From the NCBI GenBank assembly GCA_021838715.1, contig JAKCCX010000001.1:98243-162242 (forward strand): a stretch of 64,000 nucleotides of DNA. Reading direction: 5' to 3'. Each line of letters opens with the position of its first letter. The stretch's first letter is position 1. Below the pieces are notes generated by a model. That model saw only the letters and a list, made by a program, of their open reading frames with translations, ran no database searches and had not been told where the DNA came from. Positions 15,936 through 20,375 of this stretch are shown in pieces. A program made the translations under genes and the position numbers. The DNA comes from Pseudomonadota bacterium (GTDB lineage Bacteria; Pseudomonadota; Gammaproteobacteria; Burkholderiales; Burkholderiaceae_F).

Positions 15936-16814
15936 TCAAGCCGGTGATGACGGAACCGCGCCAATCAAGCCTTGCCGCCCGGCGTAATCGCGCGCGAACT
16001 GCAGCGCGACCCGGCCGGAGCGCGAACCGCGCTGCAGCGCGAAGCGCAAGGCTTCGCCGCGCGCCGCCTCGACGTCCTGCGCGGCAAGCCCGAAGTGGCG
16101 CAACCAGTGCGCGACGATCTCCAGGTAATCGTCCTGACGGAACGAGCGGAACGACAGCCACAGGCCGAAGCGCTCCGAGAGCGAGATCTTTTCCTCCACC
16201 GTCTCCGCGGGGTGCAGGTCGCCCTGGGCGTCATAGGTTCCGGCGAGGTTTTCCTCCATCGATTCCGGCATGAGATGGCGGCGGTTGGAGGTGGCATAGA
16301 CGAGCAGGTTCGATGCGCCGGCCGCGATCGAACCGTCGAGCGCGGCCTTCAACGCCTTGTACGAGGCATCACCCATTTCAAACGAAAGGTCGTCGCAGAA
16401 CGCGATGAAACGCTCGGGGCGCGGCGCGACCAGCGCGGCGATTGCCGGAAGATCGACCAGGTCGGCCTTGTCGACTTCGATCAGCCGAAGCCCGCGCCCG
16501 GCAAACTCGGCAAGACAGGCCCGCACCAGCGACGACTTCCCGGTGCCGCGCGCGCCGGTGAGCAGCACGTGATTCGCGGGCAGTCCGCGCACGAACTGCT
16601 CGGTGTTGCGAAGGATCGCGTCCTTCTGCACGTCGACCCCAAGCAGATCGCCCGCCTCGATGCGCGCGATGCGGTCCACCGCGACGAGTTCGCCGCTCTC
16701 CGCGCCGAGAAAACGGCGTTTGCGCCAGTGAAACGCCTGCGCGGTCCAGTCCGGCCCGGCGGGCACCGGCGCCCAATGATCGAGCCAGCGGACGAGACGG
16801 TCGAGCGGATCCAT
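15936..16814 (-). CDS. DUF815 family AAA ATPase
   Basis: NHVLLTGARGTGKSSLVRACLAEF; IAFCDDLSFE; LLVYATSNRRHLMPESMEEN. Confidence 0.92.
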   Translation of the reverse strand: MDPLDRLVRWLDHWAPVPAGPDWTAQAFHWRKRRFLGAESGELVAVDRIARIEAGDLLGVDVQKDAILRNTEQFVRGLPANHVLLTGARGTGKSSLVRACLAEFAGRGLRLIEVDKADLVDLPAIAALVAPRPERFIAFCDDLSFEMGDASYKALKAALDGSIAAGASNLLVYATSNRRHLMPESMEENLAGTYDAQGDLHPAETVEEKISLSERFGLWLSFRSFRQDDYLEIVAHWLRHFGLAAQDVEAARGEALRFALQRGSRSGRVALQFARDYAGRQGLIGAVPSSPA

Positions 16815-16916
16815 TTCTTCTCCTTGAACAGCCGGGAGAAGTTGATACCACAAATCGCGGATGCCAACCTTGGCGCAGCAGCGCGGCAGCGCACGCGTCC
16901 GGATCGAAAATTTTCC

Positions 16917-17581: not shown

Positions 17582-18574
17582 ATGCACCCCCGCCTCACCG
17601 TCGGCATCGTCACGCCCGCCACGCCCGAAACCAACAACGGCAACTGGCGCACCGCCGTACGCTGGGCGCGGATGCTGGCGCCGCAATTCCGCACCCGGGT
17701 CCTGCAGACCTGGCGGGGCGAACCGGTCGACCTGCTCATCGCATTGCACGCCCGCCGCTCGGCGGCGTCCATCGCCGCCTGGGCCGCGGCGCGGGACGCG
17801 CACCGGGCCGGCCCGCTGATCGTCGCGCTCACCGGAACGGATCTCTATCGCGACATTCATCACGACCAAAGCGCGCAGCGCTCGCTGCAGCATGCCGATG
17901 CGCTGATCGTCCTGCAGGAGAACGGCGCGGACGCGCTGCCCGCCGCGCTGCGCGCGCGGACCTCGGTGATCTATCAGTCCGGCGGCAAGCGCGCAACGCT
18001 GCCCAAGACCTCGGTACGCCTGCGGGCGCTGATGGTCGGACATCTGCGCGACGAAAAATCGCCCCAGACCTATTTCGCAGCGGCGCGACTGCTGCGCGAC
18101 CGCAACGACATCGTGCTCGACCACATCGGTGCAGCGCTGAACGCGGACCTGGAACGGGAGGCGCGCGCGGCGATGGCAGAATGCCCGGCGTACCACTGGC
18201 TGGGCGCGCTGCCGCACCGGGAGACGCTGCGGCGCATCCAGCGCGCGCATGTGCTCGTGCATCCCAGTCGGATGGAGGGCGGCGCGCACGTGATCCTCGA
18301 GGCGATCCGTAGCGGCACCCCCGTGCTTGCATCCGACATTCCGGGAAATGTCGGTATGCTGGGCAGGGACTATGCCGGATATTTTCCGGTCGGCGATGCG
18401 GCGGCCTTGCGGAACCTGCTCGTGCGCTGCCGCGACGAGCCGGCGTGGCTGGCGGAACTGGCGCGCGAGGGCCGCCAGCGCGCGCCGCGATTCGAACCGG
18501 CCGAGGAACAACGCCGACTCCGCCGCCTGGTGGCGCAATGTCTGCAACATCGCATGGAAGGAAACGTGTCGTGA
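17582..18574 (+). CDS. senB: Glycosyltransferase, TIGR04348-like; candidate selenosugar synthase SenB
   Basis: IVTPATPETNNGNWRTAVRWARML N-terminus; LIALHARRSAASIAAW; VHPSRMEGGAHVILEAIRSGTPVLASDIPGNVGMLG; overlaps selD start (GTGA). Confidence 0.82.
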   Translation: MHPRLTVGIVTPATPETNNGNWRTAVRWARMLAPQFRTRVLQTWRGEPVDLLIALHARRSAASIAAWAAARDAHRAGPLIVALTGTDLYRDIHHDQSAQRSLQHADALIVLQENGADALPAALRARTSVIYQSGGKRATLPKTSVRLRALMVGHLRDEKSPQTYFAAARLLRDRNDIVLDHIGAALNADLEREARAAMAECPAYHWLGALPHRETLRRIQRAHVLVHPSRMEGGAHVILEAIRSGTPVLASDIPGNVGMLGRDYAGYFPVGDAAALRNLLVRCRDEPAWLAELAREGRQRAPRFEPAEEQRRLRRLVAQCLQHRMEGNVS

Positions 18575-19638
18575 GGGAAAACCATCCGCCCCGCCTGACC
18601 TCGCTGTCCCACGGCGGCGGCTGCGGCTGCAAGATCGCGCCGGGGGTGCTTTCCGAGATCCTGCGCGGCACCGCGCAGATGCCGATCCCCCCCGAGTTGT
18701 TGGTCGGGATCGAAACGTCCGACGACGCGGCGGTCTACCGCCTCAACGACGAACAGGCAATCGTCGCGACGACCGACTTCTTCATGCCGATCGTCGACGA
18801 CCCATTCGATTTCGGCCGCATCGCGGCGACCAACGCGATCTCCGACATCTATGCGATGGGCGCGCGACCGATTTTCGCGCTGGCCATCGTCGCCATGCCG
18901 ATCAAGGAACTGCCGATCGCGACGATCCGGGGAATCCTCGAAGGTGGACAGCAGGTGTGCCGAGCGGCCGGGATCCCGATCGCAGGCGGGCACACCATCG
19001 ACTCGGTGGAACCGATCTACGGCCTGGTGGCGCTCGGCCTCGTTCATCCCGACCGCGTCCAGCGCAACAGCGGCGCGCGTCCGCGCGACCGGATCGTGCT
19101 GGGCAAGCCGCTGGGCGTGGGCGTGTATTCGGCGGCCCTGAAAAAGGATGCCCTGCCGCCGGACGCCTACGCGCGCATGATCGACACCGCCACGCGCCTG
19201 AATACGCCCGGCCCCGAACTTGCGGAGATCGAGGGCGTGCATGCGCTCTCGGATGTCACCGGATTCGGCCTTGCGGGGCACGCCCTCGAACTGGCGCGCG
19301 GCGCCCGCCACCCGGTGCGGATCGACTGGGCGCGCGTGCCCTTGCTGCCGGGAGTGCGGGACCTCGCGCAGCAGGGACACACCACCGGCGCGTCGGCGCG
19401 CAATTGGGCGAGCTACGGCGCGGACGTGCAATTGCCCGCCGGGTTTTCCGAGGTCGACCGCGCGCTGCTCACCGATCCCCAGACCAGCGGCGGCCTGCTC
19501 GTGAGCTGCGCCCCATCGGCGGTGGATCAGGTGCTGGCGGTTTTCCGCAAGCACGGATTCGAGGCGGCGGTCGAGTGCGGCGAAGTCCTCGACGAGCTCG
19601 GGCCCGGAAAGCTGACCATCACTCGCGCAACGGCCTGA
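18571..19638 (+). CDS. selD: Selenide, water dikinase (selenophosphate synthetase, Cys form)
   Basis: LTSLSHGGGCGCKIAPGVL; TSDDAAVY; TTDFFMPIVDDPFDFGRIAATNAISDIYAMGA; DVTGFGLAGHALE; LTDPQTSGGLLV. Confidence 0.95.
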   Translation: MRENHPPRLTSLSHGGGCGCKIAPGVLSEILRGTAQMPIPPELLVGIETSDDAAVYRLNDEQAIVATTDFFMPIVDDPFDFGRIAATNAISDIYAMGARPIFALAIVAMPIKELPIATIRGILEGGQQVCRAAGIPIAGGHTIDSVEPIYGLVALGLVHPDRVQRNSGARPRDRIVLGKPLGVGVYSAALKKDALPPDAYARMIDTATRLNTPGPELAEIEGVHALSDVTGFGLAGHALELARGARHPVRIDWARVPLLPGVRDLAQQGHTTGASARNWASYGADVQLPAGFSEVDRALLTDPQTSGGLLVSCAPSAVDQVLAVFRKHGFEAAVECGEVLDELGPGKLTITRATA

Positions 19639-19673
19639 CCCGCAGGGCTCCAACCGAAAGGCGGAACCACGCC

Positions 19674-20375
19674 ATGCCCCTTCGAATCCACGTCCTGCAA
19701 CACGAACCCTTCGAGGGCATCGGCAGCATGGCGCCGCGACTTGCCGCGCTGGGCGCGGAGATCCGCACGACGCGGCTCTATGAGGATCCGGCACTGCCGG
19801 CGTCGAGCGATGCGGATCTCCTCATCGCCATGGGCGGGTCGATGAGCGTCAACGACGAGGCGCGCCTGCCGTGGCTGCGCCCGGAGAAGCGGTTCGTGCG
19901 CGCGGCGATCGACGCGGGAACCGCGGTGCTCGGCGTCTGCCTCGGCGCGCAGTTGATTGCCGACGCACTCGGCGCGCGCGTGACCCGCAATCCCGTTCCG
20001 GAAATCGGCTGGTTCCCGGTCGAGGGGGTGCCGCCGCCGGCCGGTGTCGATGCCTTCCGTTTTCCCGACCGGTTCCGGGCGTTCCACTGGCACGGGGAAA
20101 CCTTCGCCCTGCCGCCCGGCGCGATTCATCTGGCGCGATCGGCGCACTGTGCGCACCAGGCGTTTCAGTTCGGGCCACGGGTGATCGGATTGCAGTTCCA
20201 TCTGGAAACGACGCCGGACAGTGCGCAGGCCCTGATGGAAGGCTGTGCCGACGAGCTGATTCCCGGCGTCCCGACGATCCAGAGCGCGGAGGCGATCCGT
20301 TCCTCGGCGCAATATGAAGAGATCGATGCCTTGATGGGAGCGGTGTTGGCGTATCTGCTACGCCCGGGTCATTGA
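19674..20375 (+). CDS. Class-I (type 1) glutamine amidotransferase
   Basis: LIAMGGSMSV; VLGVCLGAQLIADALG nucleophile elbow; HWHGETFALP; GLQFHLETT. Confidence 0.88.
   Translation: MPLRIHVLQHEPFEGIGSMAPRLAALGAEIRTTRLYEDPALPASSDADLLIAMGGSMSVNDEARLPWLRPEKRFVRAAIDAGTAVLGVCLGAQLIADALGARVTRNPVPEIGWFPVEGVPPPAGVDAFRFPDRFRAFHWHGETFALPPGAIHLARSAHCAHQAFQFGPRVIGLQFHLETTPDSAQALMEGCADELIPGVPTIQSAEAIRSSAQYEEIDALMGAVLAYLLRPGH

Follow-up and report, generated by a model that had tools for sequence, protein, structure and literature searches.

A senB–selD–gat cluster as a probable selenosugar module of the selenoneine pathway

The senB–selD–gat cluster in the window (the whole 64,000-nucleotide stretch of DNA that was analysed) is probably an ordinary module for making a selenosugar within the selenoneine pathway, whose SenA is either unassembled or was recently lost in this species, with the amidotransferase-like gene gat being a neighbour of selD. 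It is proposed that SelD would make selenophosphate, which MnmH could also use for tRNA selenouridine, and that SenB would couple selenophosphate to a nucleotide sugar to give a 1-selenosugar. In the sister species G001 this selenosugar would feed a distant, island-encoded SenA that adds selenium to hercynine. In the window's genome the module would be completed by a SenA that is missing from the assembly, or would have been orphaned recently. The first-pass annotation had instead read the cluster as a possible variant selenometabolite pathway in which the amidotransferase takes part; overall, that interpretation is partly supported.

The cluster and its two putative selenium enzymes

The three genes follow one another on the same strand (Table 1). 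The stop of senB and the start of selD overlap by 4 nucleotides (GTGA, 18571–18574), and 35 nucleotides separate the selD stop from the ATG of gat; the gene positions and the overlap given in the first-pass annotation stand, while its spacing of 36 nucleotides is one too long. The arrangement resembles the senA–senB–senC cluster for selenoneine biosynthesis in Variovorax paradoxus (Kayrouz et al. 2022, as related in PMC9814287, PMC10891094 and PMC10702425) in that SenB exceeds the curated cut-off and keeps the catalytic and sugar-binding residues, and in that SelD/SenC lies directly behind it with start and stop overlapping. Unlike the V. paradoxus cluster, senB of the window has no adjacent senA, none being found in the assembly, selD is followed by gat, and the genes bordering the cluster are one CHRD-like and one MFS transporter-like gene.

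Table 1. Genes of the cluster, in window coordinates
Gene	Position	Strand	Start	Stop	Length (aa)	Product
senB	17582..18574	+	ATG	TGA	330	putative selenosugar synthase (Se-glycosyltransferase)
selD (senC)	18571..19638	+	GTG, within senB stop	TGA	355	putative selenophosphate synthetase
gat	19674..20375	+	ATG		233	stand-alone class-I glutamine amidotransferase-like protein; Cys89/His176/Glu178

The SenB of the window scores 446.1 bits against TIGR04348 (cut-off 300), covering model positions 1–309 of 310, and matches the solved SenB structures 8jjn, 8jjq and 8fbx (phmmer 2e-102). Alignment to 8jjn shows that N20, T23, K158 and E231 of V. paradoxus SenB correspond to N21, T24, K159 and E232 in the window, and that the EGGAHV motif is intact (E232GGAHV); the catalytic and sugar-specifying roles of SenB residues are described in PMC10891094. 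The family score and the kept residues therefore place the glycosyltransferase within the SenB clade, in agreement with the first-pass assignment, and by analogy with V. paradoxus SenB the enzyme is predicted to use selenophosphate and a nucleotide sugar to form a C–Se bond. Its relatives are found in Burkholderiales and neighbouring betaproteobacteria.

The SelD of the window, the sole SelD over cut-off in its genome, scores 525.9 bits against NF002098 (cut-off 299) and 417.2 bits against TIGR00476 (cut-off 125) and contains the motif GGGCGCK; it would be active as is SenC of V. paradoxus. Each of the seven genomes searched within the genus has MnmH, so that SelD has a second, conserved client.

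In the window's species senB is not decaying but evolves under strong purifying selection. Its dN/dS relative to G001 is 0.113, equal to that of selD (0.115), with six amino-acid changes placed on the window branch, eight on the G001 branch and five unplaced. The window branch has thus acquired 6 to 11 changes, compared with an estimated 90 or so expected without constraint, which implies that something used the SenB product until recently, or for most of the time since the two species split.

SenA in the sister species and the empty island site

G001, a one-contig genome of the same genus, carries the cluster in the same gene order (SenB 94%, SelD 95% and GAT 93% identical to the window proteins). 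It also encodes, at 1.246 Mb, a SenA (449 bits, cut-off 420), about 2 Mb from senB at 3.228 Mb. This SenA lies on an 8.7-kb island (L155:4478–13181) that adjoins tRNA-Pro(GGG) and holds egtD, senA, a broken senB stub and an FAD-oxidoreductase::SelD fusion. Loci of the Hydrogenophilus/Rhodocyclales type have the order egtD, senA, senB, fusion; at the position corresponding to senB the island has just a broken stub of the start of that gene, detected by tblastn and local alignment (local score 53 against the window senB, the best of 500 shuffles reaching 40). The island SenA clusters with those of Hydrogenophilus and Rhodocyclales (support 98/96) and is not grouped with the SenA of G006, of the same genus, that adjoins senB. 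This grouping points to lateral transfer of the island gene. The simplest reading of the decay is that the island senB was dispensable as the resident, window-type senB served in its place, and the decayed gene is the best available evidence that a window-type SenB makes the ordinary selenosugar. Taken together, the cluster, the distant SenA and the decayed island senB make it most likely that the window-type SenB serves the ordinary selenoneine pathway in G001. A further difference between the two species concerns an ATPase gene, uninterrupted in the window (15936–16853) but split in G001 by ∼1.45 kb of extra DNA (L151:10747–12196), the breakpoint being near window position 16561.

The window's genome differs from G001 in having an empty island site and, instead of the island, an EgtB–EgtD pair located on another contig. 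Both flanks of the G001 island are joined on a single contig (C61). This joint recurs, its spacer being homologous, in G002, which synonymous distances in selD (0.19 versus 0.35) place outside the window's species and G001. Since the outgroup shares the joint and the spacer, the most parsimonious history is a gain of the island in G001, the window's species probably never having carried it. The SenA model search found no SenA in G002. Its senB is reduced to a remnant (L202:10253–10440), consisting of a 154-nucleotide piece with a 1-nucleotide deletion and the last few dozen nucleotides of the gene, directly upstream of an intact selD–gat pair. G002 represents the next step after orphaning, in which senB has decayed to a fragment and selD is kept.

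The amidotransferase-like gene

The gat product contains a PF00117 GATase domain (54.8 bits, cut-off 22.8) and the motifs GVCLGAQ (with Cys89) and FHLE (with His176 and Glu178), of which the first-pass annotation had pointed out GVCLGAQ and HLE. It falls under every NCBIfam equivalog cut-off, the nearest being PRK07053 (178.9 bits of 250), and matches the structures 9xfs_A (5e-33) and 3m3p_A (7e-31). With the stand-alone class-I GATase-like proteins of the PRK07053 group (PDB 9xfs, 3m3p, 3l7n) it shares the fold family, the Cys–His–Glu triad and the lack of an attached synthase domain; unlike them, it adjoins selD, and does so only in a small clade among the genomes searched.

A role for gat in modifying the selenosugar, its precursor or its product, which would make senB–selD–gat one pathway, had been suggested in the first-pass annotation and is highly improbable. 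The close same-strand spacing, the gene order kept in the two species with intact senB, the intact catalytic triad and purifying selection (dN/dS of 0.11 to 0.19) fit such a role, with position being the sole point in favour of participation in the selenosugar step; however, gat is absent from all 80 other named SenB loci (taken with flanks of as much as 8 kb, contig ends permitting), and the selenoneine pathway as published needs no amidotransferase (PMC9814287). Among 60 relatives just two, G001 and G002, have a close orthologue (>45% identity), which lies behind selD in each. More distant homologues (45% identity or less) occur widely, none being beside selD in the 17 loci checked, and the neighbours of these distant homologues show no selenium link (DXP synthase is upstream in two loci checked, the other neighbours being unassigned). 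The conservation in relatives that the first-pass annotation proposed to test holds for G001, where all three genes are kept, but not for G002, where gat adjoins selD behind the senB remnant. Because G002 retains the selD–gat pair with only a fragment of senB, gat keeps to selD; together with its absence from other SenB loci, this makes it a lineage-specific selD neighbour, in a small clade within the genus, that probably follows selD (or the site) and not senB. It is likely that gat and selD are co-transcribed, and we judge gat to stand outside the selenosugar pathway. As the gene is under purifying selection and follows selD at an even distance in three species, it may be linked to selenium use in general.

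Possible fates of the selenosugar

The absence of senA from the window, pointed out in the first-pass annotation, is confirmed and extends to the rest of the assembly (2.6 Mb in 146 contigs, 96% complete), in which SenA was not found with the NF041186, TIGR03440 or TIGR04373 models. The whole-genome model search that the first-pass annotation had proposed places SenB over the TIGR04348 cut-off and returns no SenA over that of NF041186. This absence is not final, because the assembly is 96% complete. The view that the missing neighbour signals a variant pathway finds no support in the survey: of the 21 named genomes without a strong SenA match beside SenB, 14 carry a SenA over cut-off elsewhere, several of the remaining ones have truncated SenA pieces at or near contig ends, and G001, with the same cluster, also has its SenA elsewhere. 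Across 61 genomes, SenB was over cut-off in 21, and SenA in 17 of these versus 2 of the 40 genomes without SenB over cut-off (Fisher p 1.6e-9), the two genes being non-adjacent in 5 of the 17 genomes having both. A senA-less neighbourhood is therefore weak evidence for a new selenometabolite, since SenA is often encoded elsewhere and can be carried by an island whose own senB decays in the presence of a resident copy.

Against a missed or recently lost SenA stand the failure of three models to find one and an island site that is empty and looks ancestral. The same observations favour a fate of the selenosugar that does not involve SenA in the window's species, where it could be an end product, serve to store selenium or donate it to some acceptor: the island was probably never in the species, the spacer that links tRNA-Pro to the far flank being homologous to the one in G002, and the constraint on senB is not relaxed, with fewer derived changes than in G001. 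SenB without SenA over cut-off was also observed in G014 (one contig, 93% complete) and G050 (100% complete), and the named isolate Tepidicella baoligensis (L045) has senB–selD with zero matches to the SenA model in the searched genome, which makes it a good candidate for laboratory work on a SenA-independent selenosugar. It is conceivable that in the window's species and in these three genomes the selenosugar is an end product or feeds another selenium pathway and that selection keeps senB for this reason, although we regard this as unlikely, for the window's species as for the others. A consumer gene common to the SenA-less SenB loci of G014, G050 and T. baoligensis was looked for and none was shared; the genes seen at such loci are HlyD/peptidase-ABC transporter-like and fabI-like genes (read from translations), a SpoU methylase and FeoB, and a GntR regulator. 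The strong co-occurrence of SenB and SenA also speaks against a SenA-independent fate, as does the loss of senB in the SenA-less G002 lineage, and a mobile SenA island is a typical loss in a fragmented draft genome.

An alternative way of completing the pathway would be through the EgtB–EgtD pair on the 3.35-kb contig C30, with EgtB taking the selenosugar to make selenoneine. Both genes occur in this assembly; the EgtD (311 bits against TIGR03438, cut-off 290.9) would supply hercynine, and the EgtB, the sole full-length enzyme of the EgtB/SenA type detected in the assembly, belongs to the same superfamily as SenA, the TIGR03440 and NF041186 models cross-matching. However, this EgtB scores 550 bits as EgtB (TIGR03440, cut-off 360) and 361.7 bits as SenA (NF041186, cut-off 420, the best match in the genome), it is placed in the EgtB clade apart from all SenA with support of 100/99, and its nearest relative occurs in G005, of the same genus, which has no SenB or SelD over cut-off. 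Completion of the pathway by EgtB is thus very unlikely. A missed SenA and a recently lost SenA, taken together, rank far ahead of a SenA-independent fate of the selenosugar, which in turn ranks ahead of the use of EgtB. EgtB-like matches on two further contigs, C106 and C82 (100 and 82 bits), were rejected as SenA, covering only the C-terminal, FGE-sulfatase-like part of unrelated proteins.

The genomes in which SenB seems to be present without SenA form a short list in which a different fate of the selenosugar should be sought first. The survey also revealed five genomes, mostly Limnobacter (G064, G065, G066, G071 and G072; loci L027, L028, L035, L050 and L052), that each encode two different SenA-family proteins, both over cut-off and neither beside senB. 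The sen loci L023, L060 and L068 come from metagenome-assembled genomes titled Bordetella parapertussis, and these titles look doubtful.
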